Part shown: positions 3,602-47,023 of the stretch, piece after piece
Layout of the letters: every line of letters starts with the position of its first letter
How positions within the stretch are numbered: position 1 is the first letter of the stretch
Origin: a bacterium
GTDB taxonomy: Bacteria; Campylobacterota; Campylobacteria; Campylobacterales; Sulfurimonadaceae
Assembly (NCBI GenBank): GCA_018825665.1
Contig: JAHJEG010000006.1
Location: 1 to 47,152, forward strand
Direction of reading: 5' to 3'
DNA length: 47,152 nucleotides
Translations under genes and position numbers: made by a program
Notes under the pieces: model-generated
Seen by the model: the letters and a program-made list of their open reading frames with translations, nothing else
Databases searched by the model: none
Told to the model about the DNA's origin: nothing

Positions 3602-4192
3602 ATGCCGCGTATTGACAGCGAAAAATTTTATACCTCAGCAATAAAAGTACACGGTACCACCGCAAAAGGGGTCAACTGGTACTCCAAAGAATCCCAGGAA
3701 CTTAGATTTGATATTATTTTAGAGATGCTTCCCCATGATTTGAGCGCTCTTAGCATAGCAGACGCGGGATGCGGTTTTGGAGATTTTTATACCTATATGT
3801 GTAAAAAAAAGAAAAAACCAAAAAAATATATCGGGCTGGATTCCCTTGCAGATATGTATTGCATAGCTTCAGAACAAACCGGCTGCGAGATCATCCTGGC
3901 CGATATCTGCAAAGAGCAGCTTCCACATGCCGACTTTTATGTCTGCAGCGGAGCTATGAATGTATTAAACGAATTTGAGACGCATCTTTTTATACGCAAC
4001 TGTTTTGCGGCATGTGGAATCGGCTTTGTGTTTAACATACTTCACGGGGACAAGGATTCTGAGACTTATAATTATATTTCCACATGCCGGATTGAAGAGA
4101 TGGCAAAAGAGTTAAACGTCTCTCATGTACAGCTGAGAAAAGATTATCTCGAAGATGATATTACGGTTGCATTTTTAAAAAAGGATATCTGA
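3602..4192 (+). CDS. class I SAM-dependent methyltransferase
   Basis: A 196-residue cytosolic methyltransferase of unknown substrate. Motif I is IADAGCGFGDFYTY (about 57-70), the acidic ribose-binding residue is in YIGLDSL, and the motif II/III area is ADICKEQLPHADFYVCSG. The protein is short, with no extra substrate domain. AAAGGA lies just before the ATG. Its stop overlaps the start of asnB (TGATG), so the two are translationally coupled, which suggests a joint role that I cannot name. Three exact copies of the GGCATGTGGAA word fall inside this small gene. Confidence 0.8.
   Translation: MPRIDSEKFYTSAIKVHGTTAKGVNWYSKESQELRFDIILEMLPHDLSALSIADAGCGFGDFYTYMCKKKKKPKKYIGLDSLADMYCIASEQTGCEIILADICKEQLPHADFYVCSGAMNVLNEFETHLFIRNCFAACGIGFVFNILHGDKDSETYNYISTCRIEEMAKELNVSHVQLRKDYLEDDITVAFLKKDI
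3921..3931 (-). repeat. GGCATGTGGAA word, copy 1
   Basis: Exact match on the minus strand within the methyltransferase gene; read there as Leu-Pro-His-Ala. Confidence 0.8.
4009..4019 (+). repeat. GGCATGTGGAA word, copy 2
   Basis: Exact match on the plus strand in the same gene, encoding Ala-Ala-Cys-Gly, a different peptide from copy 1. Confidence 0.8.
4078..4088 (-). repeat. GGCATGTGGAA word, copy 3
   Basis: Exact match on the minus strand, in a third reading context (Ser-Thr-Cys-Arg). It lies 58 bases after copy 2, in inverted orientation to it. Confidence 0.8.
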
Positions 4193-5994
4193 TGTGCGCA
4201 GTTTTTGGAATTTTAGGGGAATACGATGAAGCCAGAGCCAAGCATGCTCTCTCGCTTCTCACACACAGAGGGCCCGATTACTGCGGTATCACACAAAGAA
4301 CAAAGCTTTTTTTTGCCCATCAGAGACTGAGCATACTCGACACGCACGAACGCGCACACCAGCCTCTGCGACATAAAGATATCCTTCTTTCTTTCAACGG
4401 AGAGATATACAATTTTAAAGAGCTAAAAGATGCGCTCGATTTTGATTTCAAAACACAAAGCGACAGCGAGGTCATCATCGCCGCCTATCTAAAGTGGGGT
4501 GTGGATTTTGTTCATCACCTCAGAGGGATGTTTGCCATTGCCCTCCTTGACAAAGAGACGCTCTATCTCTTTCGCGACAGGCTTGGGAAAAAACCTCTTT
4601 TTTATATGCACACTCAAAACACTTTGTATTTCAGTTCCGAGATAAAAGGGCTTACCCCCTTTTTAGACAAACATACCCTTAATGATGACGCGCTTATGAG
4701 TTATCTCTCTTTTTTGGCCCCTACTCCGCCTCATACCTTTTTCAAGGGGATACACAAGCTGGCATGTGGAGAATTTCTGGTTTATAAGAATAATCAGACC
4801 GAGGTAAAAAAATATTTTGACCTGCTCGATACCCCACCAAACATCATCACCTCCAGAGATGAGGCGGTATCCATGCTTGAAGGGCTGCTTGAAGAGTCTA
4901 TAAATCTGCGCCTTAACTCCGATGTGCCTATGGCTTCTTTACTCTCGGGAGGGATAGACAGCGCTTCTTTGAACTACTATGCTAAAAAACAGGGGATAGA
5001 CCTGCACACGTATACTCTGGGCTACAAAGAGTTTGCAAAATACGATGAAAGGGCAAATGCAAAGGAGAGTGCGGAATTTTTGGGAGTTAAGAATACGGAA
5101 GTTGAGATTTCACAGGATGATTTTATCGCGGCATGTGGAAATGTTCTGGAAACTCTTGATGAGCCCCTTAACGATCCGGCAGCCATCCCTTTGTATCTGC
5201 TTTTTGAGAGAATAAAACAAGACGGTTATAAAGTGGTGCTAAGCGGAGAGGGAAGCGATGAGCTGTTTTTGGGCTACAGACAGTACTTTGAATATCTCGA
5301 CATTGAAAAAGCATCCTCACTGGCGCACAAAAACTGGCTGAAAAAATATTTCCGTTCCAACTTTTCCATGAACAGGGAGTGGGAATGGTATAAACGAATC
5401 TTTGATGAAACACTGCTTTTTAGAACATCGGGCGACAAATTTACCGACCTTCAAAAAAACAATCTTATGAGAAGAAATGTAAAAGACAATGAATCCCTGA
5501 AGTACCTAAAACCCTACAGAGACGCTTTTGAGGCTTCTGCGCACAGGGATGAGAGTATCTGGTACAGCTATATTGACCTGAACATCTTTCAGGCAGAGCA
5601 TTTTCTCACAAAACTCGACCGTGTCAGCATGGCGCACTCCATCGAATCGCGCACCCCTTTTTTAGACCATAAGCTGGCATGTGGAATCTTCAGCATCTCT
5701 CCAAAACTCCGTTACGAAGATGGGACTACAAAGTCGCTCTTAAAAGAGATAATGAAGCCAAAACTTGATGAGAGGATTTTAAAGCGCAAGAAAAAAGGTT
5801 TTTCCAATCCCTATATGGAATACCTTATAAAAAGCGGAAAAATCAGCCTTATAAAAGAGGTGAATGAGCAAACGGGGATGTTTAAACAAAAAGAACTTGA
5901 TGCGTACATAAATACCGCTTCCAAGGGAAGTTTCAAGCAACATCTCTGGGGTCTGTATGTTTTATCCGTCTGGATCAAGAAGCATATGCTCTAA
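4192..5994 (+). CDS. asnB: asparagine synthase (glutamine-hydrolysing)
   Basis: ATP-dependent conversion of aspartate to asparagine using glutamine ammonia; cytosolic. The 600-residue protein has the family's full length. The N-terminal glutaminase domain starts MCAVFGILG, so Cys2 becomes the nucleophile after Met removal, followed by the LLTHRGPD segment. The C-terminal synthetase domain has the pyrophosphate loop SGGIDSAS (about residue 253) and the conserved SGEGSDELFLGY and LDRVSMAHSIESRTPFLD. The start overlaps the methyltransferase stop by one base, with AAGGAT six bases upstream. In other genomes some AsnB homologues amidate cell-wall or natural-product carboxylates, and the methyltransferase partner leaves that possible here. 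Confidence 0.9.
   Translation: MCAVFGILGEYDEARAKHALSLLTHRGPDYCGITQRTKLFFAHQRLSILDTHERAHQPLRHKDILLSFNGEIYNFKELKDALDFDFKTQSDSEVIIAAYLKWGVDFVHHLRGMFAIALLDKETLYLFRDRLGKKPLFYMHTQNTLYFSSEIKGLTPFLDKHTLNDDALMSYLSFLAPTPPHTFFKGIHKLACGEFLVYKNNQTEVKKYFDLLDTPPNIITSRDEAVSMLEGLLEESINLRLNSDVPMASLLSGGIDSASLNYYAKKQGIDLHTYTLGYKEFAKYDERANAKESAEFLGVKNTEVEISQDDFIAACGNVLETLDEPLNDPAAIPLYLLFERIKQDGYKVVLSGEGSDELFLGYRQYFEYLDIEKASSLAHKNWLKKYFRSNFSMNREWEWYKRIFDETLLFRTSGDKFTDLQKNNLMRRNVKDNESLKYLKPYRDAFEASAHRDESIWYSYIDLNIFQAEHFLTKLDRVSMAHSIESRTPFLDHKLACGIFSISPKLRYEDGTTKSLLKEIMKPKLDERILKRKKKGFSNPYMEYLIKSGKISLIKEVNEQTGMFKQKELDAYINTASKGSFKQHLWGLYVLSVWIKKHML
4761..4770 (+). repeat. near-copy of the GGCATGTGGAA word
   Basis: Ten of eleven bases match; the last A is G. 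It lies in asnB, encoding Leu-Ala-Cys-Gly. Confidence 0.5.
5130..5140 (+). repeat. GGCATGTGGAA word, copy 4
   Basis: Exact plus-strand match in asnB (Ala-Ala-Cys-Gly-Asn). Confidence 0.8.
5676..5686 (+). repeat. GGCATGTGGAA word, copy 5
   Basis: Exact plus-strand match in asnB (Leu-Ala-Cys-Gly-Ile), the last of a dense group beginning at 3921. Confidence 0.8.
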
Positions 5995-6041
5995 GCTAAA
6001 ATTTTATACAATATTTTAAAATAAATAGGTATTTATGATGG

Positions 6042-6047
6042 TATAAT
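6042..6047 (+). promoter_or_regulatory. candidate -10 box of the plus-strand ATP-grasp operon
   Basis: TATAAT with an AT-rich upstream tract typical of Campylobacterota sigma-70 promoters, which often lack a clear -35. The predicted start near 6054 gives a leader of about 36 bases before the TTG start at 6090. Confidence 0.55.
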
Positions 6048-6089
6048 GGGCACATAGACTAATTTTATATAATAAAGCGGAGGTGTTAA

Positions 6090-7451: not shown

Positions 7452-7454
7452 ACT

Positions 7455-8126: not shown

Positions 8127-8128
8127 GA

Positions 8129-10004: not shown

Positions 10005-10014
10005 TCCACTCTTT
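9989..10014. terminator. shared terminator of the two convergent operons
   Basis: AAAGAGTGGA (9989-9998) pairs with TCCACTCTTT (10005-10014) across a six-base loop, followed by T-rich sequence on the plus strand. It overlaps the stop of the pseudo-peptidase and lies 15 bases past the stop of the minus-strand transglutaminase, so it can end transcripts from both sides. Confidence 0.75.
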
Positions 10015-10029
10015 TGTCAGGGCACTTTT

Positions 10030-10998: not shown

Positions 10999-11000
10999 GT

Positions 11001-16859: not shown

Positions 16860-16920
16860 GGTATTCCTTTGAAAAAGTTTTCGAGCGTACGTCCGGTCTA
16901 TGTAATACTTTAGAATTTAT

Positions 16921-16926
16921 ATTATA
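16921..16926 (-). promoter_or_regulatory. candidate -10 box of the minus-strand transglutaminase operon
   Basis: TATAAT on the minus strand (CTATAATATAAA context). The predicted start near 16913 leaves a leader of about 54 bases before the ATG at 16859. It lies upstream of, and points away from, the J-domain gene promoter. Confidence 0.5.
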
Positions 16927-17034
16927 GCACCTAATACTCTGTTTTGCCTGATGCCGCTGAAGAAATAGCAAGTTTTTTGAAAATTCAAACGAGCAAGAAT
17001 AAGGGACAAAAGTATGTCAGTCATCTAAAAAAGA

Positions 17035-17040
17035 TATAAT
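17035..17040 (+). promoter_or_regulatory. candidate -10 box of the J-domain gene
   Basis: TATAAT preceded by an A/T-rich tract. The predicted start near 17047 gives a leader of about 31 bases to the TTG at 17078, containing its AAAGGA ribosome site. Confidence 0.5.
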
Positions 17041-17077
17041 TTTAAACACAAAGATTTTGCAAACAAAGGAATACGAT

Positions 17078-17542
17078 TTGATACGAACCATTTTAGGTCT
17101 GGCCATCATAGCTTTTGGCATTTTTTTAGAGGTGATGTGGCTGGGAGTTTGTTTTGGAACCGTTGTCATAGGGATACTGCTTCTGCTCTTTGCGCCCGCA
17201 ATTTTATTTTTCCCTTTTAACTTTTTTCTCATTCTGGGGCTGAGCGTCATGAGAGGAATCTCCTATACACAGTCTTCACAGTTTAAGTACCGACACTCCT
17301 CCGGCCAAAACGACACCTATGCAAAACCCCAAAGCAGTTTGGACAAATATTATGAAATCCTCGAATCAAGCAAAACGGACAGTTTTGAGGTTATAAAAGC
17401 CAATTACAGAAGACTCGTAAAGGAGTATCACTACGACTCAATCGCCAGTAAAAACCTCCCCCCTGATATGCTGAAGTTCGCCCAGGAAAAGACACAAAGC
17501 CTCAACGAAGCCTACGCCGCGATAAAAGAGGCCAGAGGATAA
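17078..17542 (+). CDS. membrane-anchored J-domain-like protein
   Basis: About 154 residues. Two hydrophobic segments fill the first 60 or so residues (IRTILGLAIIAFGIFLEVMWLG; TVVIGILLLLFAPAILFFPFNFFLILGL). A polar linker and a C-terminal DnaJ-like domain follow (DKYYEILES..TDSFEVIKANYRRLVKEYHYDSIA..LNEAYAAIKEA). The Hsp70-stimulating HPD tripeptide reads HYD, so DnaK stimulation is doubtful. I chose TTG 17078 because AAAGGA at 17065-17070 lies seven bases upstream; an in-frame TTG at 17057 has no such site. Cytoplasmic J domain at the inner membrane; partner unknown. It stands alone between the transglutaminase operon and a chemoreceptor. Confidence 0.75.
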   Translation: MIRTILGLAIIAFGIFLEVMWLGVCFGTVVIGILLLLFAPAILFFPFNFFLILGLSVMRGISYTQSSQFKYRHSSGQNDTYAKPQSSLDKYYEILESSKTDSFEVIKANYRRLVKEYHYDSIASKNLPPDMLKFAQEKTQSLNEAYAAIKEARG

Positions 17543-17667
17543 GCGCTACATACTCCTTACACTATTTAGCCTCATAAATTCTTGACATAAGACAAAATTA
17601 TCAATTCTGTTTTATGCTAAATTCATTTCTTGTTATTTATTTATACCAAAAAACAACAGGAATGCCT

Positions 17668-19830
17668 ATGTTACAAAATATGCCGATAAGACTAAAAATG
17701 GCCATGATGGTTACGCTGCCCGTTGCTATCATCTTTATTTTACTCAGTACAAATGCCTATGATAATTATAAACAAGCCCAGGAGCTCAGCACAATAGAAG
17801 AAGCAACAATTTTAACTACAAAGATTGGTTTCATGGTACACAACACGCAAAAAGAGCGTGGTGCATCAGCGGGTTTCATCGGTTCAAAAGGGAAAAATTT
17901 TGCTACGGATATCGTGGATATCAGAAAAGATACCGACCTCACCCGAGCAGAGATGGAAGAGTTCTACAAAAGTATGGATTTTTCCAAATATCCCAACGAA
18001 ATGCAATCCAAAATGGATGACGCGATGAATCGCTTATCCATGCTCAACGAAAAAAGATCGAAGATAAGCTCTCTGGATATCAATGTTCCTAAGGCCGTTG
18101 CCTATTACACAGATATGAATGCAGCCTTTTTGGATACTGTCGCCTATATAGCTAAGATCAGTACAAACCATAAGATGAGCACATCTTTAAGTGCCTTTAC
18201 AAACTATCTCTACTCCAAAGAAAGAGCCGGCATTGAAAGAGCCGTTATGACGGGTACTTTTGCAAAAGACTCTTTTCCTGATGGTTTTTACGCCAAGTTT
18301 ATAAAACTTATGAGTGAGCAGGATGTGTATATGAAAAGTTTTCTGTTTTTAGCTTCAAAAGAAAATGCCGCGTTTTACAAAAGCACTCTTGTAGGGGAAG
18401 CCGTTAACGAAGTAAATCGAATGAGAGCCATAGCATCTTCACATATAAACGGAGGATTTGGCGTAGATGCTCTCTACTGGTTCAAAACAATTACGGCAAA
18501 AATAAATTTGCTTAAAAAAGTTGAGAACCACCTCTCGGACGGTATTTTGCAAGAGGTCGACAGCTTAAGAGAAGAAGCGAATCTCAAACTGCTCTTGAGT
18601 ATTGTGATAAACATACTTGTGCTTGTTCTGGTTTTGGGATTAAGCTTTTTAATTTCAACAGCTTTGACGAAAAAAATCTCGCGATTAAAAAATGAACTCG
18701 ATGAGATCATATCTTCAAAAGATTTTTCAAAAGAGATTACCCAAAACGGAAGCGATGAGATGGCATCTATTCAAAATGCCGTAAATCATCTGCTTTTTAC
18801 CGCCAATGAAGCGATACTAAATGCAGAAAAAAGTTTGGAAGAATCAAAAAAACATGCCGAGGAAAGCGAGGAGCAACTTGAAAAGAACACCTTAACCTTA
18901 TCCTTGACCAAATTACTCACCCAAGGTGCAAACTACGGAGTAGCCGATGTGCAAAAAGGGATTGCGAACAATATGCAGTCACTGCAAAAGATAAATGAAA
19001 AAAACGCCACGACAGAAGAGATTGTATCGACGGTTCAAGAGTCAACACATGAAATGGGAACCTCTCTTGAGACTATTTCAGAGAAAATGAATGAAAGCAA
19101 AACAAATTCAGATCAGTTAAATAACAGTGTAAATGAAATTACAAATGTAATATCATTGATTAAAGATATCTCAGACCAGACAAACCTTTTGGCCCTTAAT
19201 GCAGCCATTGAAGCTGCCCGCGCAGGGGAACATGGCCGCGGATTTGCGGTTGTGGCGGATGAAGTGAGAAAATTAGCCGAAAGAACCCAGAAGGCTACAA
19301 GTGAAGTGGAGGTCAACATCAATCTTTTAAAACAAAATAGTGCTGCAATGCATGAGTTTTCAGAACAGATGGATACTGAAATAGCGATATCCTTAGAAAA
19401 ACTGACTGCATTTAACAGCAGTCTCTACTCACTTTTGGCCAGTTCAAGCGAAATACAGGGGGACACCATAGTTATTTCTCATGAGCTTTTTGTAAATCTT
19501 GCAAAATTAGACCATATCGCCTTTAAGTTCTCAGGCTACGATTCAGTCTTTAAGGATGATAAAAATTATACCTTTTCGGCTCATACGGAATGTAGATTTG
19601 GAAAATGGTATCACGAGGAGGGTAAAAAAGCTTTTCATAACACCTCTTCTTATTCAAAGGTTGAAGCTCCTCATAAAGCTGTTCATGAAAACACAAAAAA
19701 AATCCCGCAGCTTGTAAGTGAGGGAGCCGTTAAAAATGCAGAGAAAATCATACAGGCATTTGAAAATACAGAGAAAAACTCCAAAGAACTTTTCTCTGTT
19801 TTAGACACTATGCTCCGTGAGTACAAATGA
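17668..19830 (+). CDS. methyl-accepting chemotaxis protein with NIT sensor and C-terminal CZB domain
   Basis: About 720 residues, inner membrane. TM1 ([17 protein letters not shown]) is followed by a periplasmic helical sensor containing [11 protein letters not shown], the signature of NIT (nitrate/nitrite-sensing type) domains. TM2 ([22 protein letters not shown]) comes next, then a HAMP-like stretch and the signalling hairpin with the canonical tip [35 protein letters not shown]. The last 110 or so residues form a chemoreceptor zinc-binding (CZB) domain with ligand pattern H (LDHIAFK), C ([12 protein letters not shown]) and two His (HKAVH). CZB domains are linked to zinc and hypochlorous acid sensing. 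ACAGGA at 17656-17661 favours ATG 17668 over upstream ATGs at 17614 and 17662. No CheB/CheR-binding pentapeptide is seen. Confidence 0.88.
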
Positions 19831-19850
19831 TTTTTTGCAAATATTTTCAC

Positions 19851-20732
19851 TCAGAGAGAGATTTTTCTGGCAGTTAAGAACAGGTAGTCTTTACCCGTAA
19901 CCGTCACTCTGTACTTCTTTTGCTGCAGGTATTTTTTGCAAAAATGGATATCTTTTAGCACAAGACTCATCTCTGAGAAACTGTAGTTTGGCGCTTTGGC
20001 GCCGTATATCATCTCGCCGTCTATCCATCTGCAGTTTGGAAAACCCAAGATTACGGCTCCCCCCTCCGCCAGATACTTTTGGTACAGATACATAAATGTG
20101 GCATTGAAGTTTATATTTGAACTTTGCAGAGTCCCTATGGAGATGATAAGATCAAATTCACCAAGATCCAGCGCATCAAGAGTGTTGATATCATGCGATA
20201 TAAAACTGCAGTTGGCATGTGGAAGTTCTTTTGAGGCATAGCGAATTACAGAATCCGAATAGTCAATCCCTATAAACTCTTTGGCATCAAAATTTTCATC
20301 GTCCAACATCTCTTTTATAACCTTAAACTCATCTCCTTTGTTGATCCCGAGGTTTAGAATCCTCTTTTTTTCTTTGATATTTATAAATCTGAGTGCCTGT
20401 TGATAGTAATACAAAAAACTAAACTGTGCCGTTTTATCAATGGAGAAAAACTCACTCTCGACCCCATATTTTTCATCCCCTCTGTCGGTTTTATGAAAAG
20501 ATGAGTCTTGATTGAGTTTCTCAAATCTCAAAATGACGCTTTGTCCCGACACATGCGGAGTCAGCATCTTCATAAAAAAGATTTGAGACAAATCCGTAAA
20601 TGCCTTATACCCTATGCGCTCTATGTCCGATTCCAAGACCTCCGCTTCGATTCTCTCCTGTTTTTCCGAAGCGTTCTTTTCAAACCACTCCATAATCTCT
20701 GCGGAACTTTTTTGTCTTAAATCAATTCTCAT
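19851..20732 (-). CDS. SAM-dependent methyltransferase, substrate unknown
   Basis: 293 residues. About 110 N-terminal residues of unassigned helical sequence precede a class I methyltransferase core. Motif I is unusual (RILNLGINKGDEFKVI; family norm LDxGxGxG), the acidic residue is in FIGIDYSD, and post-I motifs are SFISHDINTLD and FDLIISIGTLQ. YLAEGGAVILGFPNCRW is the usual strand 6-7 region. Its start overlaps the upp stop (TGATG), so both are translated from one message. A link to uracil or nucleotide metabolism would be only guilt by association. It is convergent with the chemoreceptor, 20 bases away, with no obvious hairpin between. Confidence 0.75.
   Translation of the reverse strand: MRIDLRQKSSAEIMEWFEKNASEKQERIEAEVLESDIERIGYKAFTDLSQIFFMKMLTPHVSGQSVILRFEKLNQDSSFHKTDRGDEKYGVESEFFSIDKTAQFSFLYYYQQALRFINIKEKKRILNLGINKGDEFKVIKEMLDDENFDAKEFIGIDYSDSVIRYASKELPHANCSFISHDINTLDALDLGEFDLIISIGTLQSSNINFNATFMYLYQKYLAEGGAVILGFPNCRWIDGEMIYGAKAPNYSFSEMSLVLKDIHFCKKYLQQKKYRVTVTGKDYLFLTARKISL
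20214..20224 (+). repeat. GGCATGTGGAA word, copy 6
   Basis: Exact plus-strand match, antisense within the minus-strand methyltransferase, where it codes Leu-Pro-His-Ala-Asn. Confidence 0.8.
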
Positions 20733-21546: not shown

Positions 21547-23943
21547 ATGGCATATTCACTAGAACCTTCACAGCTGTATCATAGCTGTGATTCTGCACTT
21601 TTTACATTCAAAACTACAGACGAACTGGAACTTCTGCAACACCCCATAGGTCAGGAAAACGCGCTAAAGGCGGTTGACTTTGGAACAAGCATCGAGCAGG
21701 ACGGTTACAACCTTTTTGCCATGGGACCTTCTGGAAGCGGCAAGCATTCTACCGTTATGAGCTTCTTGGAGGCAAAGGCAAAAAACAGAGAGCTCCCAAG
21801 TGACTGGTGCTATGTCAATAATTTTAAAAATGCCCAAAAACCTATCGCGATACAATTAAAACCTGCAACGGCAATACTCTTTAAAGATGATATCGATGAA
21901 CTTATAGAGCTGTTAAAATCGATTCTTCCCGCCGTTTTTGAGGGCAACAACTACCATAATGAGCGCGAGATTATAAACAAAAGATTTATGGATGCCCAGG
22001 CGGATATCTTTGAGTATCTTCAGGAAGAGGCAAAAAAACACAATGTTGCCATGAACGCATCATCAAGAACCTATGTGACTTTCGTCCCTATCGTGGATGG
22101 AAAAATACTTTCTGCCCAAGAATTCAAAGCGATTGAGGGGAAAGAAAAAGAAGAGATCAATAAAAATATGAGTGCTTTTGAGCTCATAGTAAAAGAAAAA
22201 CTGCGAAAAGTCAGCGAACTCAGCAAGAACCTGCAAAAAGAGTTCAAGGCACTCGATACAAAAGTCACACAGGAGGCCGTTGAGCCTCTTATGGATGATA
22301 TCCGAAAAAAATATGCCGATTCACAAAAGATCACAGAGTACCTCAATGACCTGCAAGAGGACCTTATCCATCACGCACAGGATTTTTTAGTCAAACCCGA
22401 TGATGCTTCCGTCCCGCCTTTTATGCGTGAGTTTTATGCCCCCTCTTTTGCCAGATACAAGATAAACCTTTTTATTTCCCATGACAAACAAACTGCTGCA
22501 CCCGTGATTTATGAGGATAATCCGATTCATCAAAACCTCATCGGCAAGATTGAGCATCTCTCACACATGGGAACACTGATTACGGATTTCAGCATGATAA
22601 AGCCCGGTGCCCTGCACAGGGCAAACGGGGGTTATCTGGTTCTGGATGCAAGAAAACTGCTGATGCAGCCTTTTGCCTATGAGGAGCTCAAGCGTGTTTT
22701 ACGCTCAAAAGAGATACGCATAGAATCTATCGCTCAGCAGTATTCGCTTATCAGCACCAGCTCTTTGGAACCCGAACCCATACCCGTAGATATAAAAGTC
22801 GTACTCATCGGCGAGAGGATGTTTTATTATCTTTTATACCATTACGATCCTGATTTCAAGGAGCTTTTTAAGGTAAATGCGGACTTTGAAGACGAGATGC
22901 CGCGTAACGAAGAAAACATCCAGCTGTATGCCAAAATGATCGGCACCATTGCCAAAAACCATTCCCTGCTTCCTTTGACCCCGGAGGCGGTGGCAAGAGT
23001 CATAGAGCAAAGCTCGCGAATTATTTCGCATACATCCAAATTTTCCGCACATCTGGGCACCCTGGCAGACCTTCTCAAAGAAGCAGATTTTTACTCAAAA
23101 AAAAGCGCACATACGTCTATAGACAAAAAAGACGTTGAAGAAGCGCTTCACAGCCAGGAACAGCGTATAAACCGTATACAGATGAAGCTCTACGAACAGA
23201 TCGACGAGGGTACGATTATGATAAACCTCGAAGGGGACATAGTAGGACAGATAAATGCTCTAAGCTATATCTCCATTGGCAGCCACCATTTTGGGATACC
23301 CTCGCGCATAACGGCAAGAAGCAGAGTCGGAAAAGGCGAGATAATCGATATTGAACGCGAAGCAGAACTCGGCGGGCCTCTTCACTCCAAGGGGGTGATG
23401 ATCTTAAGCTCCTATCTAGGTTCAAGATATGCTTCGGATATGCCTTTGAGTCTATCGGCTTCGCTTGTCTTTGAGCAGTCTTACGGCAAGATTGACGGAG
23501 ACAGCGCTTCATCCACGGAGCTTTACGCCATACTCTCCTCCCTCTCAGAGCTTCCTATAAAACAAAATATCGCCGTAACGGGTTCCGTAAACCAATACGG
23601 AGAGGTTCAGCCCATAGGCGGTGTCAATGAAAAGATAGAGGGATTTTTCGACATATGCATGCGCCATGATGCACAAGCTTCCTACGGGGTGATTATTCCA
23701 CATGCCAACATCAAACATCTTATGCTCAAACAAGAGGTGCTTGAGGCTTCCAAAAAAAGGCAGTTTCACATCTATGCAATCCACTCCGTCGATGAGGGTA
23801 TCTCTATACTCACCGGCGTGGATGCAGGCAAAGAGGACAAAAAAGGAAACTTCCCTCCGGACTCGGTAAATGCCAAAGTAGTCGCAAGACTCAAAGCACT
23901 CTCAAAATCAAGCAAAAAATTCCAGAGTTCCAAAAAAGCATAA
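21547..23943 (+). CDS. Lon-like ATP-dependent serine protease (AAA_32/LonC-type)
   Basis: 798 residues, cytosolic. The N-terminal SLEPSQLYHSCDSALFTFKTTDEL and IGQENALKAVDFG are typical of this Lon subfamily, which differs from LonA by lacking its long N domain. Walker A is MGPSGSGKHS, an inserted coiled-coil region spans about 150-260, the arginine/Walker B area follows 'HRANGGYLVLDARKLL', and the C-terminal Lon peptidase has the S653 (GDSASSTE) / K696 (GGVNEKIEGF) dyad, 43 residues apart as in LonA. It should degrade misfolded or regulatory proteins. I start at ATG 21547 with AAAGG at 21535-21539; the frame is open upstream to 21427 but lacks family similarity there. Monocistronic. Confidence 0.88.
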   Translation: MAYSLEPSQLYHSCDSALFTFKTTDELELLQHPIGQENALKAVDFGTSIEQDGYNLFAMGPSGSGKHSTVMSFLEAKAKNRELPSDWCYVNNFKNAQKPIAIQLKPATAILFKDDIDELIELLKSILPAVFEGNNYHNEREIINKRFMDAQADIFEYLQEEAKKHNVAMNASSRTYVTFVPIVDGKILSAQEFKAIEGKEKEEINKNMSAFELIVKEKLRKVSELSKNLQKEFKALDTKVTQEAVEPLMDDIRKKYADSQKITEYLNDLQEDLIHHAQDFLVKPDDASVPPFMREFYAPSFARYKINLFISHDKQTAAPVIYEDNPIHQNLIGKIEHLSHMGTLITDFSMIKPGALHRANGGYLVLDARKLLMQPFAYEELKRVLRSKEIRIESIAQQYSLISTSSLEPEPIPVDIKVVLIGERMFYYLLYHYDPDFKELFKVNADFEDEMPRNEENIQLYAKMIGTIAKNHSLLPLTPEAVARVIEQSSRIISHTSKFSAHLGTLADLLKEADFYSKKSAHTSIDKKDVEEALHSQEQRINRIQMKLYEQIDEGTIMINLEGDIVGQINALSYISIGSHHFGIPSRITARSRVGKGEIIDIEREAELGGPLHSKGVMILSSYLGSRYASDMPLSLSASLVFEQSYGKIDGDSASSTELYAILSSLSELPIKQNIAVTGSVNQYGEVQPIGGVNEKIEGFFDICMRHDAQASYGVIIPHANIKHLMLKQEVLEASKKRQFHIYAIHSVDEGISILTGVDAGKEDKKGNFPPDSVNAKVVARLKALSKSSKKFQSSKKA
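23696..23706 (-). repeat. GGCATGTGGAA word, copy 7
   Basis: Exact minus-strand match within the Lon-like gene, coding Ile-Pro-His-Ala-Asn. Confidence 0.8.
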
Positions 23944-24732: not shown

Positions 24733-26022
24733 TTACTCCTTTATTGGTTTAACTCTCAATACAAGACCCAAAAGTTCGCTCACCTGAACCCTCTCGCCGA
24801 CCTGCAGTTTCTCCCGGCATGTGCAATTCCATATCTCGCCGTGGCACAAAACACGGCACCCTTTTTCATTATACTCCACAACCTCGGCGATTGCGCCTAT
24901 CATCTCTTCTGCGCCGCTGACAACCTTGGCGGAACGTGAGCGCAAAAACACCCGCACAAGTATGATAAAAAAAGCAAGACTCACAAGAGTAAAAGCTACT
25001 ATTAGCGGTATGGACACACTGCTGCCAAGCGTATTTGCGTCAAAAAGCAAAACGGAGCCAAAAGCAAAGGAGAGGACTCCCCCGATACCCAGGATACCAA
25101 ACCCGCTTACAAAAACTTCAGCAATCATAAAACTGATACCCAGAATAATCAACAGCAGACCCGCATAATTAAACGGAATCATATTTAACGCATAGAGCGA
25201 GACAACTCCCGAGATGATACCTATCACACCCGGAATTACCCCACCTGGATTCATCAGTTCAAAAAATATGCCGTATACGGCTATGAGTAAAAATATATAT
25301 GCGATATTCGGATTGGTGATTGTAGATAAAAACTTTGTTTTCCAGTCGGCTTCATATCTGTGTACTACCGCATCTTTGCTTTTAAGGACTCTTTTTTTGC
25401 CCAAGACATTGAGCGTTTTTCCGTCTATCTTGCTTAAAAGCTCCCCGGTATCCTCCGCTATAAAATCGATAACTCCGTATTTTAAAGCATCTTCGGCGGA
25501 GAGACTTTTAGCTTCCGCGACCGCTTCTTGTGCCCATGATACATTGCGCTCATTCATCTGTGCCAGACTTTTTATATATGCCACCGCATCGTTGAGGGCT
25601 TTTTTCTCAAGAGTGGAAGCAGCACTGCCGTTTAAATCTTTTTGCATCGGCATCAGGTTGACCGGAGTAGCCGCACCGAGGTTTGTCCCCGGCGCCATTG
25701 CAGCCACATGCGCGGCATAAAGCAGATATGTCCCGGCACTGGCCGCATGCGCGCCTTTTGGAAAGACATAGACAACTACGGGGATGGGGCTGTTCGTAAT
25801 CTCCTGAATCATCTCGCGCATAGAGGTGGATAATCCCCCCGGGGTATCGAGCTTTATCAGTATCATCTTTGAGTCAAGACGCAAGGCTTCTTGTATCCCC
25901 TCTTTGAGATAACTGCTGCTTGCCGGGCCTATGACACCGTTTATCTGTAGCTGGGTAATGGAGAGAGGTTCAGAAAAAAGAGGTAAAAAAGTAAGCAATA
26001 ATAATAAAAGTAAGCGTTTCAT
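24733..26022 (-). CDS. NfeD-type membrane serine protease (STOPP partner of slipin)
   Basis: About 429 residues. Signal peptide (MKRLLLLLLLTFLPLFS), then a ClpP-like serine protease domain in the periplasm with TPGGLSTSMREMIQ, the nucleophile region GAHAASAGTYLL and the lysine expected near DAVAYIKSLA. Several transmembrane helices follow (about 235-370), and a C-terminal OB-fold NfeD domain (GAEEMIGAIAEVVEYNEKGCRVLCHGEIW). Long-form NfeD1b architecture. ATG 26022 is preferred to GTG 26031 because AAGGTG is then correctly spaced. Operon with the slipin; together they are thought to control membrane-microdomain protein quality. Confidence 0.9.
   Translation of the reverse strand: MKRLLLLLLLTFLPLFSEPLSITQLQINGVIGPASSSYLKEGIQEALRLDSKMILIKLDTPGGLSTSMREMIQEITNSPIPVVVYVFPKGAHAASAGTYLLYAAHVAAMAPGTNLGAATPVNLMPMQKDLNGSAASTLEKKALNDAVAYIKSLAQMNERNVSWAQEAVAEAKSLSAEDALKYGVIDFIAEDTGELLSKIDGKTLNVLGKKRVLKSKDAVVHRYEADWKTKFLSTITNPNIAYIFLLIAVYGIFFELMNPGGVIPGVIGIISGVVSLYALNMIPFNYAGLLLIILGISFMIAEVFVSGFGILGIGGVLSFAFGSVLLFDANTLGSSVSIPLIVAFTLVSLAFFIILVRVFLRSRSAKVVSGAEEMIGAIAEVVEYNEKGCRVLCHGEIWNCTCREKLQVGERVQVSELLGLVLRVKPIKE
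24816..24826 (+). repeat. GGCATGTGCAA variant word, copy A
   Basis: Exact match to the C-variant of the repeated word, within the nfeD gene on the strand opposite to its transcription. Confidence 0.7.
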
Positions 26023-26101: not shown

Positions 26102-26737
26102 TCAAGTTTCTTCGTATCGTGTAATCAAAGGGACAAAGGTAAAACCGTAATGCTCTACTCCCTCAAGCGCACCGTTCTCATTTTTCGTTACTTCATAAAT
26201 TGAGTTTCCCACGGGTATCACAAGTTTTCCTCCGATTTTGAGCTGTTTTGCAAGGGCATGTGGAAATTTCTCAGCGGCAGCGGAGACAAGGATACGCTCA
26301 AAGCTTTCACCAGGCAGACCCAATGCATCACCCGCTTGCAGAATCCTGGCATGTGCAAAATTATACTTTTTCAGATTCTCACGTCCAAATTCTACAAGTG
26401 AGCGAACTCTCTCAAGGCCGGTGACAGACCCATTCTCTCCCACCATAAAAGCCAAAAGAGCTGTTGTCCATCCGGAGCCGCTTCCTATATCCAAAATTTT
26501 CTGAGCCTTATGCACATCCAGCATCTCCATCATCATAGCCACGACACTCGGCTGCGAAATTGTCTGCCCCTCTCCTATGTGCAGAGGATAATCCTCGTAT
26601 ACCTCCGGGGCAAAACCCTCAGGCACGAAATCCGCCCTGTCGACATTTTGAAACGCTTCTATCACCAAAGGGCTGCTTAAAGCCCCTGAACTTTGTAAGT
26701 AATGGATTAAATCCTCGTGTGAAGAAGTTCCGAACAT
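26102..26737 (-). CDS. pcm: protein-L-isoaspartate O-methyltransferase
   Basis: Repairs isoaspartyl residues in aged proteins by SAM-dependent methylation; cytosolic. 211 residues, normal size. Signatures are RADFVPEGFAPEVYEDYPLHIGEGQTISQPSVVAMM, motif I ILDIGSGSGWTTALLA (Trp where Tyr is common), VTGLERV, and the family-specific FERILVSAAAEKFPHALAKQLKIGGKLVIPVG. GAGGAAAAAG precedes the ATG. It is divergent from the histidine kinase at 26868, and the gap between them holds a 12-bp dyad. It contains one copy each of the G- and C-forms of the repeated word. Confidence 0.92.
   Translation of the reverse strand: MFGTSSHEDLIHYLQSSGALSSPLVIEAFQNVDRADFVPEGFAPEVYEDYPLHIGEGQTISQPSVVAMMMEMLDVHKAQKILDIGSGSGWTTALLAFMVGENGSVTGLERVRSLVEFGRENLKKYNFAHARILQAGDALGLPGESFERILVSAAAEKFPHALAKQLKIGGKLVIPVGNSIYEVTKNENGALEGVEHYGFTFVPLITRYEET
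26255..26265 (+). repeat. GGCATGTGGAA word, copy 8
   Basis: Exact match in pcm, antisense; the coding strand reads Phe-Pro-His-Ala-Leu. Confidence 0.8.
26348..26358 (+). repeat. GGCATGTGCAA variant word, copy B
   Basis: Exact C-variant in pcm, 93 bases from copy 8 and in the same orientation; the coding strand reads Phe-Ala-His-Ala. Confidence 0.7.
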
Positions 26738-30464: not shown

Positions 30465-31862
30465 ATGGCAACAGTCACATCCTATGGCGCGGCAAAAACC
30501 GTAACCGGTTCCTGCCATCTGCTAAAAATCGGTCCTATAAAGATACTTGTAGACTGTGGTATGTTTCAGGGTGATGGAGGCGGTAAAAAAAACTATCTGC
30601 CTTTTGAGTTCGACCCCTCTGATATAGACTTTTTGATTATAACCCATGCACACCTCGACCATATAGGACGGGTGCCAAAGCTTATAAAAGAGGGGTTTGA
30701 GGGGAAGATAATCGCCACGAGACCAACGCACGACATAGCAAAAATCATGCTCCTCGACAGTGCAAAAATACTTAAAGAAGAGTATAAGACCCTCAGGAAA
30801 AAAGCTCGCCGGCGTGGGGACGAAGCCAATGTCTATGAGCCGCTTTACACAGAAGACCATGTTAAAGAAGTTTTCTCAAAAAGATGGCATATTCTGGAAT
30901 ATTTTCAAACATACAAACTGCCAAAAAAAATCAAAGTCACACTTGGGAATGCAGGTCACATCATGGGAAGCGCTTTTGCGATGATAGACTACGCAGAGGG
31001 CAAAACCAGCAAACGGGTTGTCTTTTCCGGAGATATAGGCAGTCCGCACCGCCTGATTATAGACGGTTTGGATACAAGCGAAGAGGGGGATACTCTTTTT
31101 ATCGAGTCCACCTATGGAGACAGAGTACATAAACCCCTAAAAGAGAGTATCGCAGAGTTTAAACAGAGTGTGATAGAAACCCTCCAAAGAGACGGAAATG
31201 TTTTGATTCCCTCATTTGCTCTGGAGCGAACGCAGGAGGTATTATGGCTGCTCCACGAGATGTACGAGGATAATGAACTGCCCCAATGCAGAGTCTTTCT
31301 AGACAGCCCTTTGGCGATAAAAGCCACAAAACTGTATACGAAATATCCAATCCATCTCAGTGAAGAAGTTGAATACAAGACGAGCGACGAGGAGAGTCCT
31401 TTTTCTTTTCCCGCACTTGAGACAACGCCGACACGAGACCAGTCACTAATGATAAACAAGGTCAAACAAAGAGCCATCATCATAGCCGGAAGCGGCATGT
31501 GCAACGGCGGACGTATTATGCACCACCTCAAACATCGTCTCTGGAATCCGAACAACACTGTCGTCTTTGTCGGTTTTCAAGTAAACGGAACACTGGGCAG
31601 ACGTATCGTAGACGGAGATAATTTTGTAAAGATCTACGGTGAAGATATCATAGTAAAAGCACAGGTGAAAACCATCAACGGCTTTTCCGCCCACGGCGAT
31701 CAGAATGATTTGATGGAATGGATGCGAAGTTTCAAGAACATGAAAAAAATCTACCTCATTCACGGTGAAGCCGAAAAAATGGAACTCTTTGCAAATGCGA
31801 TTAAAACGAGCCTGAAGCATGATGTTTCTATAGTGGAACATGGCATAAAGATAGAACTCTAA
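30465..31862 (+). CDS. beta-CASP metallo-beta-lactamase-fold hydrolase (probable RNase)
   Basis: 465 residues, cytosolic. The zinc motif is HAHLDHIGRVPKL; further metal ligands lie in GNAGHIMGSA and FSGDIGSPH. The beta-CASP insert carries SGMCNGGRIMHHLKHRLW and NTVVFVGFQVNGTLGRRIVDG, and the closing histidine lies in INGFSAHGDQNDLMEW. Such proteins (YSH1/CPSF73-related) cleave RNA endo- or exonucleolytically. It is distinct from RNase J by its shorter length and missing C-terminal domain. GGAGG lies upstream of the ATG. The LOG-family gene starts 16 bases downstream, probably in the same operon. Confidence 0.88.
   Translation: MATVTSYGAAKTVTGSCHLLKIGPIKILVDCGMFQGDGGGKKNYLPFEFDPSDIDFLIITHAHLDHIGRVPKLIKEGFEGKIIATRPTHDIAKIMLLDSAKILKEEYKTLRKKARRRGDEANVYEPLYTEDHVKEVFSKRWHILEYFQTYKLPKKIKVTLGNAGHIMGSAFAMIDYAEGKTSKRVVFSGDIGSPHRLIIDGLDTSEEGDTLFIESTYGDRVHKPLKESIAEFKQSVIETLQRDGNVLIPSFALERTQEVLWLLHEMYEDNELPQCRVFLDSPLAIKATKLYTKYPIHLSEEVEYKTSDEESPFSFPALETTPTRDQSLMINKVKQRAIIIAGSGMCNGGRIMHHLKHRLWNPNNTVVFVGFQVNGTLGRRIVDGDNFVKIYGEDIIVKAQVKTINGFSAHGDQNDLMEWMRSFKNMKKIYLIHGEAEKMELFANAIKTSLKHDVSIVEHGIKIEL
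31494..31504 (+). repeat. GGCATGTGCAA variant word, copy C
   Basis: Exact C-variant in the beta-CASP gene, coding Gly-Met-Cys-Asn of the conserved SGMCNGG motif. This copy may therefore be explained by protein conservation. Confidence 0.5.
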
Positions 31863-31877: not shown

Positions 31878-32849
31878 ATGAAAAAAACACAGGCAAAAAA
31901 CGAAAAACATTTTAAGTCTTTAAATATTCCAAAACCTCCCGAACCTACGCAAAGGGAGGAGAAGCTCCCTTGCGAATTGCCAAAATCTACAAAAGATGAT
32001 CCGCAGGCCGCAAAAAGATTAGAAGAGATTATGAAGAGTCCCAGCTACATCAGTGCTGATAACGACTATGATTTTCTCAGAGATGATTCTGTCAGAGGGG
32101 TGCGTCTTCAGATAGACTATCTAAAAACAGAGCTGCTGTTGCAAAAGTATGGGATTGAAAAAACCGTAGCGGTTTTTGGAGGGACCCGTATAGTTGAAAA
32201 AGCTGAAGCGGAGCGTCATCTTGAAAAGGCCAGGAATGCCTATGAAAAAGATCCGACGAGCAAAATCCTGGCACAAAAACTGAAAATAGCGCAGAGTGTA
32301 CTTCAAAAGAGTGAGTATTATAATATCGCCAGGGAGTTTGGACGTCTTGTGGGAAATTCCGGAGAGGGACCTTGCGATTGCAGGCTGACCCTGATGACCG
32401 GCGGTGGGCCTGGTGCCATGGAAGCAGCAAATCGTGGAGCTTTTGATGTAGGCGCGAAATCAATTGGTCTAAATATCAGCCTCCCAAAAGAGCAGTATCC
32501 AAACCCTTATATCACTCCCGAATTGTGCTTTCAATTCCACTATTTCAGTATGAGAAAAGTCCATTTCTTTAAAAGGTCTATCGCCTTGGTGGCATTTCCC
32601 GGAGGCTATGGAACCATGGATGAACTCGTAGAAGCGCTTACGCTTGTGCAAACACGAAAAATCCTCCCTTTTCCCATTATCCTTGTCGGAAAAGAGTTTT
32701 GGAAAAATGTTATCAATTTTGATTTTCTTTTAAATGAAGGGGTTATCGATTTTGAAGATACGGAACTCTTCTGGTATGCAGAAAGTGCCCAGGAGATTTG
32801 GAACGGGATTTTGGAGTGGCATGTGGAAAACGGAACGCCGCTTCATTGA
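31878..32849 (+). CDS. LOG-family nucleotide phosphoribohydrolase-like protein
   Basis: 323 residues, cytosolic. The Rossmann-type LOG ('lysine decarboxylase-like') family is shown by VAVFGGTRIVEKAEA, LMTGGGPGAMEAANRGAFDVGAKSIGLNISLP and the signature FPGGYGTMDELVEALTLVQT. Family enzymes hydrolyse nucleoside 5'-monophosphates to base and ribose phosphate; the old lysine decarboxylase label is not supported. An extra 75 or so N-terminal residues (Lys/Pro-rich, then FLRDDSVRGVRLQIDYLKTELLL) distinguish the long form from the roughly 190-residue one. Followed 24 bases later by marC. Confidence 0.87.
   Translation: MKKTQAKNEKHFKSLNIPKPPEPTQREEKLPCELPKSTKDDPQAAKRLEEIMKSPSYISADNDYDFLRDDSVRGVRLQIDYLKTELLLQKYGIEKTVAVFGGTRIVEKAEAERHLEKARNAYEKDPTSKILAQKLKIAQSVLQKSEYYNIAREFGRLVGNSGEGPCDCRLTLMTGGGPGAMEAANRGAFDVGAKSIGLNISLPKEQYPNPYITPELCFQFHYFSMRKVHFFKRSIALVAFPGGYGTMDELVEALTLVQTRKILPFPIILVGKEFWKNVINFDFLLNEGVIDFEDTELFWYAESAQEIWNGILEWHVENGTPLH
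32818..32828 (+). repeat. GGCATGTGGAA word, copy 9
   Basis: Exact match near the end of the LOG-family gene, in another reading frame (Trp-His-Val-Glu-Asn). Confidence 0.8.
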
Positions 32850-33517: not shown

Positions 33518-34561
33518 ATGTTTTTAAAAAAAACACTCATGCTGTTTTTACTCTTGACACAACTCTATGCATACGACAAGGAAGCCGCAGATACGCAAAG
33601 TGCCGTGGTATTTATGTATCATCGTTTTGGTGAATCTGCCTACCCTTCAACAAACATAAAAGTGGAGCAGTTTGCCTTTCATCTGGAGTACCTTCAAAAA
33701 AACGACTATAATGTCTGGCCTCTCTCAAAGGTGATTCGATATATCATCGAAAAAAAGCCCTTGCCGAAAAAAACGGTCTCTCTTACCATAGACGATGCGT
33801 ATAAAAGCACCTACACGCATGCCTATCCGATGCTAAAAAAGAAAAACTTTCCCTTTAGCGTTTTTGTAAATACGGCTCCTGTGGACCAAAAATCAAAATC
33901 TTTCATGTCATGGGACCAAATCAGGGAGATGCGCCAAAACGGAGCCGAATTTTTAAACCATTCTTTTAGTCATGACTATCTGATTCCAAAAAAAGGGGAG
34001 TCTGAGGATGGATGGAAAAAAAGGATCGGGGATGAAGTCCAAAAAGCACAGAAGAGACTTCAGGAGGAACTCGGAAGCGATACAAATGAAAATCCAAAAA
34101 TTTTATCCTACCCTTTTGGGGAATACAGCGAACAAAGCGCTGAGCTGATTGCATCTTTGGGCTATATCGGCGTAACCCAGGCATCAGGAGTGATGGGACA
34201 CGAGAGCGATTTAAAAGCACTTTGCAGATTTCCGATGGCTGAAGATTTTGCACATGCCGAGAGTTTCATCACAAAACTAAACACCCTCCCTCTGCCCGTG
34301 GAATCAGTACACCCCTTTGACCCCTTGCTCAAAGCAGAAAATCCGCCGACACTCAGAATAAAACTCAAACGTCCCCTGTCACAATTGGGGTGCTATATAG
34401 CCTCGGGCGAAGCGATAAAAGTCCATTGGATTTCTCAGACGGAGTTTGAGGTAAGAGCAAACCGCCCCCTAGAAGCACCAAGAAACAGATATGCCTGTAC
34501 GGCTCCCGCCGGCGAGGGCAAATGGTACTGGTTTAGTCATTTGTGGATAATCAATGAGTAG
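33518..34561 (+). CDS. exported polysaccharide deacetylase (NodB domain)
   Basis: 347 residues with a signal peptide (MFLKKTLMLFLLLTQLYA). The NodB carbohydrate-esterase-4 domain shows VVFMYHRFG, the catalytic/metal TIDDAYKSTYTHAYPML, FLNHSFSHDYL for the two histidines, and ILSYPFGEYSEQS. About 100 C-terminal residues (SVHPFDPLLKAENPPTLRIKL..) form an unassigned beta-rich region with Cys residues. It would remove acetyl groups from an envelope or biofilm glycan in the periplasm; the glycan is unknown. It ends exactly next to the convergent protease gene, with no intergenic base. Confidence 0.88.
   Translation: MFLKKTLMLFLLLTQLYAYDKEAADTQSAVVFMYHRFGESAYPSTNIKVEQFAFHLEYLQKNDYNVWPLSKVIRYIIEKKPLPKKTVSLTIDDAYKSTYTHAYPMLKKKNFPFSVFVNTAPVDQKSKSFMSWDQIREMRQNGAEFLNHSFSHDYLIPKKGESEDGWKKRIGDEVQKAQKRLQEELGSDTNENPKILSYPFGEYSEQSAELIASLGYIGVTQASGVMGHESDLKALCRFPMAEDFAHAESFITKLNTLPLPVESVHPFDPLLKAENPPTLRIKLKRPLSQLGCYIASGEAIKVHWISQTEFEVRANRPLEAPRNRYACTAPAGEGKWYWFSHLWIINE
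34248..34258 (-). repeat. GGCATGTGCAA variant word, copy D
   Basis: Exact C-variant on the minus strand within the deacetylase gene, coding Phe-Ala-His-Ala-Glu. Confidence 0.7.
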
Positions 34562-39143: not shown

Positions 39144-39587
39144 ATGGATACAAAACAGATTAAATCATTGATGCGCGATTTCGACGAAAGCGGTCTCTCA
39201 AAAGTGAAAATAACAAAAGAGGGCTTTTCTATCGAATTAGAAAAAGCTGCCGCTCCAGTAGCAGCTCCCGTAGCAGCAGTGGCTGCTCCCGTGGCAGCAG
39301 CTCCAGTGGCAGCAGTGGCTGCTCCGGCTGCTCCGGCAGAAATCACGGGCGATGCTATCCTTTCTCCAATGGTAGGAACATACTATGCGTCTCCGTCTCC
39401 AGACTCTCCGGCATTCGTAAAAGTTGGCGATACAGTTAAAAAAGGTCAGGTTGTGGCTATCTTGGAAGCTATGAAAATCATGAATGAACTTGAAGCCGAA
39501 TTCGACTGTAAAATTCTTGATATACTTGCTACGAACGGGCAGGCAGTTGAATATGACATGCCTATATACTTAGTAGAAAAGATATAA
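39144..39587 (+). CDS. accB: acetyl-CoA carboxylase biotin carboxyl carrier protein
   Basis: Carries the carboxybiotin of acetyl-CoA carboxylase at the first step of fatty-acid synthesis. 147 residues. A short N-terminal dimerisation helix (MDTKQIKSLMRDFDESGLSKVKITKEGFSIELE) is followed by an Ala/Pro/Val linker built from repeats (about 37-70) and the biotinyl domain with K111 in EAMKIMNE. GGAG lies well before the ATG; the -10 is probably TATTAT near 39102. accC starts four bases after the stop, the normal accBC pair. Confidence 0.96.
   Translation: MDTKQIKSLMRDFDESGLSKVKITKEGFSIELEKAAAPVAAPVAAVAAPVAAAPVAAVAAPAAPAEITGDAILSPMVGTYYASPSPDSPAFVKVGDTVKKGQVVAILEAMKIMNELEAEFDCKILDILATNGQAVEYDMPIYLVEKI
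39256..39339 (+). repeat. in-frame tandem repeat encoding the AccB Ala-Pro-Val linker
   Basis: GCAGCAGTGGCTGCTCC occurs at 39273-39289 and again at 39309-39325, a 36-base (12-codon) period within a GC-rich tract. Such repeats can vary in number by slippage without breaking the frame. Confidence 0.7.
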
Positions 39588-39591
39588 GCTT

Positions 39592-40932
<1,341 letters not shown>

Positions 40933-40938
40933 CACTAC

Positions 40939-40968
40939 TTTGCACATGCCGAGCTCGGCATGTGCAAA
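40939..40968. terminator. bidirectional terminator made of an inverted pair of the repeated word
   Basis: A perfect 30-base palindrome: each arm is TTTGCACATGCCGAG or its complement, and each contains an exact GGCATGTGCAA (40940-40950 minus, 40957-40967 plus). It lies between the converging accC and SurA-like genes. It is the only strong hairpin in the gap, so it is the terminator for both. Uptake-sequence pairs in Neisseria are used in the same way. Confidence 0.8.
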
Positions 40969-40983
40969 CTTCACTTCTTAAAC

Positions 40984-41820
40984 CTACTCGGGCATTCTCA
41001 CAATCTTTATCTCGGCATTATGTCGAAGCCTGTCAAAATAATCACCCAGAACCTGTTCTCTTTTTTCCGCCATAATGGAATTCACTATCTGATTCCTTAC
41101 ACTGTCCACTCCGCTCTCTTTGGCAGATGTAATCTCTCTTATATAGAAACTCATAAAAGCGCCCTTGCCATCAGGAATAATAGCCGTAAACTTGTTCAGG
41201 GGTGTTTGCTCCAGCAAAGATGCCAGTTCCGGTGAAATTCTGTCATAAGGAAGCACCTGCTCGTTTGTCTGTATATCAGGAGAATAAAACATTGGGTTTT
41301 CTATCTTTTCCTGAAGTCTCTGACTTTGCGCCGAACTATATATAATCACGCTAAAAGCGCTTGGATGGGAGAATGTCTCCTTGTGCAATTCGAAATACTC
41401 CTGAATCTCAGTCTCGTCGGGTTCTGAAACAGAAGAGTATGCTATGGCGGCATAAAGTTTCTGGGCAAGCAGTTTTTCTTTGATTTTTTCTTTTAATTCA
41501 GAGGAGCTCAAACCGTTTGCTTCCCTGACTGCATCATAAAATTCATTGATGCTCAGCTTGTTTCTCTGCGCGGTATTTTTGATATCTTCATATACCTCGC
41601 TTGAGCTGACGCTGAGCTTTCTCTCTTTGATTTCGAGTTCCTCAAGCTTTTTACGGATAAGCACGTCCGAAGCTTTTGCGGCATCGAGATTAGAGACTTG
41701 CATCTCCTTTTTAATATCATAAAGCGTTATGGCATTGCCTTTTACGACCACGGCTACACCGTCTATTATCTCAGCATTTAAAGATCCGGCAAGGAGAAAG
41801 GTTAAAAATATTTTATACAT
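40984..41820 (-). CDS. SurA-like periplasmic chaperone / peptidyl-prolyl isomerase
   Basis: 278 residues with a signal peptide (MYKIFLTFLLAGSLNA). The N-terminal SurA-type chaperone helices (VVVKGNAITLYDIKKEMQ; VLIRKKLEELEIKERKLSVSSSEVYEDI; LSINEFYDAVREANGLSSSELKEKIKEKLLAQKL) are followed by one short parvulin-like region (about 160-250) that looks degenerate and a closing helix. It should escort outer-membrane proteins through the periplasm, comparable to Helicobacter/Campylobacter members such as PEB4 relatives. The family call is firm; isomerase activity is doubtful. Confidence 0.8.
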   Translation of the reverse strand: MYKIFLTFLLAGSLNAEIIDGVAVVVKGNAITLYDIKKEMQVSNLDAAKASDVLIRKKLEELEIKERKLSVSSSEVYEDIKNTAQRNKLSINEFYDAVREANGLSSSELKEKIKEKLLAQKLYAAIAYSSVSEPDETEIQEYFELHKETFSHPSAFSVIIYSSAQSQRLQEKIENPMFYSPDIQTNEQVLPYDRISPELASLLEQTPLNKFTAIIPDGKGAFMSFYIREITSAKESGVDSVRNQIVNSIMAEKREQVLGDYFDRLRHNAEIKIVRMPE

Positions 41821-47012: not shown

Positions 47013-47023
47013 TTCCACATGCC
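47013..47023 (-). repeat. GGCATGTGGAA word, copy 10 (intergenic)
   Basis: Exact minus-strand match in the 35-base gap between the converging ABC exporter and the RND pump gene. It is the only exact G-form copy I find outside a coding region. Confidence 0.8.

Follow-up and report, generated by a model that had tools for sequence, protein, structure and literature searches.

The window, by which we mean the whole analysed stretch of 47,152 nucleotides, belongs to a contig (JAHJEG010000006.1) from a Sulfurimonadaceae genome (GCA_018825665.1). It contains the genes accB and accC and, convergent to them, a gene encoding a SurA-like protein (Table 1). Of the 51 nucleotides between the accC stop codon (40932) and the end of the SurA-like gene (40984), 30 form a perfect palindrome, TTTGCACATGCCGAGCTCGGCATGTGCAAA. 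Its layout is TTTGCACATGCC-GAGCTC-GGCATGTGCAAA, with an exact copy of the word GGCATGTGCAA on each strand. The palindrome RNA has a predicted folding energy of -23.3 kcal/mol (z = -5.8), equalled by none of 200 shuffled sequences. Among the RNA families of Rfam, the palindrome had only a match below threshold (17.3 bits, cut-off 40), which was taken as chance. A preliminary description had reported a perfect 30-base palindrome with a full word in each arm, located 3' of accC. It was right in every detail, except that the form of the word present here, with C at the variable position, is a minor variant.

Table 1. Features of the accC junction and copies of the word in the window
Feature	Coordinates	Strand	Evidence
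Gene-3'-end hairpin, head-to-head word pair, palindrome TTTGCACATGCCGAGCTCGGCATGTGCAAA	40939..40968	.	sequence and RNA fold
Left arm, word copy GGCATGTGCAA	40940..40950	-	exact match
Spacer GAGCTC, itself palindromic, prolongs the stem inward	40951..40956	.	sequence and RNA fold
Right arm, word copy GGCATGTGCAA	40957..40967	+	exact match
accC, biotin carboxylase; stop codon 6 nt ahead of the palindrome	39592..40932	+	
accB, biotin/lipoyl domain protein; codirectional with accC	39144..39587	+	
SurA-like periplasmic chaperone/rotamase, convergent; stop 15 nt from the palindrome	40984..41820	-	SurA_N_3 at cut-off, Rotamase_2 just below
C-form word copy	24816..24826	+	exact match
C-form word copy	26348..26358	+	exact match
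C-form word copy	31494..31504	+	exact match
C-form word copy	34248..34258	-	exact match
G-form word copy GGCATGTGGAA	3921..3931	-	exact match
G-form word copy	4009..4019	+	exact match
G-form word copy	4078..4088	-	exact match
G-form word copy	5130..5140	+	exact match
G-form word copy	5676..5686	+	exact match
G-form word copy	20214..20224	+	exact match
G-form word copy	23696..23706	-	exact match
G-form word copy	26255..26265	+	exact match
G-form word copy	32818..32828	+	exact match
G-form word copy	47013..47023	-	exact match

The fuller consensus of the word is GGCATGTGSAA. The genome of origin (2.34 Mb, 59 contigs) contains 631 exact copies, divided 305/326 between the strands, and no copy of the reversed control. 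The C form accounts for 96 of the 631; the window contains six exact copies of it, compared with 0.06 expected. For the core GGCATGTG, extrapolation gives about 1,100 occurrences per genome. There is a weak preference for C/T upstream of the word and for A downstream, and conservation is flat beyond approximately 3 nt outside the 11-mer (133 sites). The coefficient of variation of the spacing between copies is 0.91 on 40 gaps, a value uninformative on evenness. The region 5687-20213 of the window, 14.5 kb, has no GGCATGTGSAA at all, whereas the mean spacing is about 3.7 kb. The coding copies in the window and in stretches L126-L145 of the same genome are frame-biased: 33 of 75 are in antisense phase 1, and phase 0 is nearly absent. 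Such a bias is expected if frames that force rare residues are avoided.

Inverted pairs of the core are frequent. There are 33 head-to-head (-+) pairs within 30 nt and 20 tail-to-tail (+-) pairs, whereas random placement would produce about four in either orientation, as estimated from the core count of about 1,100. Direct pairs of the word are rare. Convergent gaps hold 14 of the -+ pairs and tandem gaps another 14, one pair is at a contig end and four are inside genes. None of the 33 is found between divergent genes, yet divergent gaps hold 9.7 of the approximately 31 kb of internal intergenic sequence. All 29 -+ pairs outside genes adjoin gene ends, and nearly all start 4-36 nt past a stop codon. 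In a 393-kb sample of stretches chosen to cover pairs, 22 of 27 pairs follow a stop codon by no more than 60 nt, compared with 4 of 135 unpaired copies; 118 of the latter 135 are coding. The genes were predicted by a simple home-made codon-usage caller, and thus individual assignments may be wrong. Two related genomes, G083 and G142, place their pairs alike, although divergent gaps contain a few of them (three +- pairs in G083 and one -+ pair in G142). The preliminary description, which held that the word is functional rather than a product of chance and proposed a search for further inverted pairs downstream of stop codons, is borne out in this respect: the pairs are far above chance, the -+ pairs mostly lie right after stops, their stems covary (see below), and the word looks functional. 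An absence of other inverted pairs from the genome, which by that description would have refuted it, is not observed. A chance origin of the word and its pairs is ruled out by the copy numbers, the zero reversed controls and the excess of pairs.

A mobile repeat of the REP/MITE type ending in the word could also produce many copies, hairpins and intergenic pairs. It is refuted by the flat flanks, as conservation ends about three bases outside the 11-mer. Moreover, the loops vary in length and sequence, and most copies are single and lie within genes, so that this origin has a negligible probability.

The preliminary description called the palindrome the accC terminator. Indeed, a stable hairpin close behind the stop codon, which is one criterion for Rho-independent terminators, is present, and hairpin energies at the paired gene ends are about -20 kcal/mol, compared with -7 to -9 for shuffled sequences. 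One possibility is that two uptake sequences form a canonical Rho-independent terminator, as in Neisseria and Haemophilus. The location after stop codons, the strong GC-containing stem and the enrichment at convergent ends, as in Table 4 of Kingsford 2007 (PMC1852404), speak for it. However, T-tails are absent wherever a -+ pair lies at a gene end (29 ends), as no U-rich tract there reaches the tail score of 4, and a scan for terminator-like sites does not call the palindrome. The 3' side of its stem ends in AAA, and thus the first bases after the stem are A-rich. The orientation of the pairs is mixed as well: the -+ to +- ratio is 33:20 in the genome of origin, 19:45 in G083, 59:57 in G107 and 60:44 in G142, with no consistent preference over seven species. 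In Neisseria, terminator pairs are +- in 226 cases and -+ in five, and the +- arrangement places the A/T tails outside (Kingsford 2007, PMC1852404). The pair in the window is of the -+ type, opposite to the prevailing one in Neisseria. On this evidence a terminator of the Neisseria and Haemophilus kind is unlikely.

Gene ends lacking the word are also rich in strong hairpins (31% of convergent ends, compared with 8% of shuffled sequences), hardly any of them T-tailed, and the genome encodes Rho. This genome thus seems to favour tail-less 3' hairpins in general, and pairing the word is one of the means by which they are made. There is good support for the pair acting as a hairpin at gene 3' ends, whereas it does not fit the canonical type of intrinsic terminator. 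Of the dual use known in Neisseria, to which the preliminary description had likened this site, the reuse of a word pair at gene ends holds here, but neither the classical terminator nor the Neisseria orientation does.

The two arms of the pairs vary together. At the variable position, the 29 intergenic -+ pairs of the genome of origin have G/G in 22 cases, C/C in five and a mixed combination in two. Thus the arms agree in 27 of 29 pairs (Fisher p = 0.00018; p = 0.00008 when pooled over three species). Inner complementarity beside the word is slightly above the permutation level (p = 0.03), and no outward extension of the stem past the word was observed (p = 0.99, permutation). The accC end itself has inverted arms in two other species, TTTCCACATGCC-TC-GGCATGTGGAA in G105 (locus L047) and TTTCCACATGCC-AT-GGCATGTGGA in G151. 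Both have GG arms and other loops, so that arms and loop are altered and the pairing is retained. A single arm is retained in G083, and no arm was found at the accC end in G107, G142, G143, G144, G148 and G125, several of which have a different downstream sequence.

The matching of arms supports selection on the RNA. It falls short of proof, as quasi-palindrome correction during replication could also match the arms. Such correction is part of an explanation that assigns the pairs no RNA function and treats them as a by-product of an abundant word in intergenic DNA, which is permissive for it. The outer flanks, with no complementarity past the word, are consistent with that explanation. However, unpaired copies are mainly coding and do not crowd at stop codons, the -+ pairs of this genome avoid divergent gaps, direct pairs are rare, and the accC site is retained in three species with altered arms and loop. 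A mere by-product therefore seems improbable to us, even more so than a canonical terminator.

Among 200 members of the family, the word is abundant only in a part of one genus. The highest copy numbers of GGCATGTGSAA are 1032 (G107), 986 (G142), 749 (G083), 722 (G105), 670 (G144) and 666 (G151). Most other genomes of the family have 0-8 copies, and a few are intermediate. The named close relatives are Sulfurimonas and Campylobacterales MAGs; the group that bears the word consists of sulfur-oxidising bacteria of seas and lakes. Among the named Campylobacterota loci, the full word occurs only in L046 and L047, whose accC genes are identical in the accC tree to those of G107 and G105, respectively.

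The hundreds of copies on both strands, the conservation confined to the word and the presence of ComEC in the host are as in the known DNA uptake sequences (DUS) and uptake signal sequences (USS). ComEC, by which alone the transformation machinery was judged, is encoded in the genome of origin and in 33 of 34 members of the genus. The exception is G143, which has 123 copies of the word; its sister G148 has 96. In the single-gene accC tree these two branch within a group of species having 670-1032 copies (support 0.999). In G148 the comEC gene is split: residues 1-172 are encoded at C15:14716-15231 and residues 164-416 at C15:23346-24104. The insert of approximately 8.1 kb (L262:1225-9346, contig C15) contains a gene for a TnsA-like endonuclease (PF08722) and, as judged by eye, has ends that match (TGACAATAGTC/TGTCAATAATC) and are accompanied by a duplication of 5 bp, GTCTC. 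A Tn7-like element here interrupts a gene for natural transformation, in a lineage losing its word. The insert also carries a 178-aa pilin-like ORF (start FTLLELVFVTVAIGILAAII), a radical-SAM-like ORF and a uracil-DNA-glycosylase-like ORF.

Decay of the word where comEC is not intact is what an uptake word predicts, although G143 and G148 in effect represent one evolutionary event. On the other side, G093 (63 copies) and G125 (22 copies) have few copies despite an intact comEC, G125 having some of another dialect, and comEC is equally present in species lacking GGCATGTGSAA. As for a receptor pilin, the GspH/FimT family had no match in the 34 genomes of the genus with a model that may miss Campylobacterota pilins. 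At the level of the genome GGCATGTGSAA bears the marks of a DNA uptake sequence, and a role in uptake is the likeliest reading of the word.

Related words occur elsewhere in the genus: AGCATGTGGAA in G168, GGCATGTGGG in G169, and the palindromic TTACATGTAA (G053, G117) and CTACATGTAG (G139). The palindromic forms are covered by the consensus YTACATGTAR, with 551 copies in G137, 300-550 in at least nine further members of the genus and four in the genome of origin. The genomes with high copy numbers of YTACATGTAR include G137, G152, G117, G139, G141, G064 and G095, and do not overlap with those rich in GGCATGTGSAA. In G053, 36 of 38 sampled copies of the palindromic word are within genes. Possible further dialects, all over-represented, are CTTCCGGAAG in Sulfurimonas M17 (L048), CTTACATGTAA in the MJ4 MAG (L052) and CTACATGTAG in Campylobacteraceae S142 (L090).

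To our knowledge, no established uptake word is palindromic. The palindromic dialects depart from this and keep alive another explanation, namely that the word is highly iterated in the manner of HIP1 and linked to a DNA methyltransferase or some other protein that binds DNA, with the hairpin use secondary. HIP1 is palindromic, as are TTACATGTAA and CTACATGTAG, and comEC is found in species with either word or with neither. However, GGCATGTGSAA is asymmetric, and its copy number dropped in the lineage that lost comEC. The clade-specific dialects also resemble the neisserial pattern, in which dialects of individual clades share a core (PMC3630211). We regard the HIP1-like explanation as doubtful, if somewhat less so than the other alternatives.

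Two uses of one sequence, an uptake-type genome watermark and, where copies are paired, a gene-3'-end hairpin, are the probable explanation of the whole. GGCATGTGSAA would be a clade-specific watermark, such that cells favour incoming DNA with the word in uptake and recombination, and this preference would retain the word at hundreds of copies on both strands. Where two head-to-head copies lie just past a stop codon, the transcript is predicted to fold into a strong hairpin of 12-16 bp. This hairpin would be retained as a structure at the 3' end of the upstream gene's mRNA or, at convergent junctions such as accC and the SurA-like gene, of the mRNAs of both genes. From the observed position, stem and covariation we infer an effect on the RNA, possibly including termination. 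Most likely, Rho or trimming generates a 3' end that the hairpin marks and protects, or the hairpin slows the polymerase at convergent ends; the polymerase may stop there, or the hairpin may block the exonucleases that trim. These roles are preferred over classical intrinsic termination, as there is no U-tract and Rho is encoded.

Pasteurellaceae and Neisseriaceae are known to mark their genomes with uptake sequences. A search of the open-licence literature yielded nothing on uptake sequences in Epsilonproteobacteria/Campylobacterota, on this word or on TTACATGTAA, and the word system as a whole seems to be new to the phylum Campylobacterota. Sulfurimonas may well have its own uptake sequences, in clade-specific dialects with a CATGT core (GGCATGTGSAA, AGCATGTGGAA, GGCATGTGGG and the palindromic TTACATGTAA/CTACATGTAG). 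Self-DNA watermarking would then have arisen a third time, independently of Pasteurellaceae and Neisseriaceae, and have been reused once more in gene-end hairpins, here tail-less ones; we hold this broader claim less firmly than the dual use itself. If true, the Campylobacterota watermark would allow the origin and spread of words of this kind to be tested independently, and the pairs test the co-option of uptake words for gene ends. Co-option here proceeds with neither a T-tail nor a consistent orientation bias, and thus the common driver would be the hairpin as such, not intrinsic termination.

The neisserial DUS (GCCGTCTGAA) is the most similar in organisation: a word of 10-12 nt, present on both strands in numbers from hundreds to about 2,000, with clade-specific dialects and with inverted pairs far above chance after genes and at convergent ends. 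It differs in sequence and phylum, and the pairs described here lack T-tails and a consistent orientation bias. They number 33 -+ and 20 +- rather than hundreds, the pair in the window is of the type rare in Neisseria, and uptake of the word described here is putative. As about 33 -+ pairs compare with more than half of the terminators in Neisseria, the dual use in this genome is minor. The Pasteurellaceae USS (AAGTGCGGT) is likewise an abundant asymmetric word with some pairs at gene ends in both orientations (50:25 in H. influenzae, PMC1852404). Its sequence is unrelated, and the word described here has neither the AT-rich extended 3' motif nor T-tails. Cyanobacterial HIP1 (GCGATCGC) is also a highly iterated short word located mostly in genes, and it shares palindromy with the sister Sulfurimonas dialects. 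In contrast, GGCATGTGSAA is asymmetric and makes gene-end hairpins. The REP/PU palindromes of E. coli stabilise mRNA 3' ends and, like the hairpins considered here, are intergenic, lack a tail and follow stop codons. They offer the likely model of the RNA role of these hairpins. However, REP elements are longer and form transposase-linked families, whereas the arms of the hairpin behind accC are copies of a free-standing genome word.
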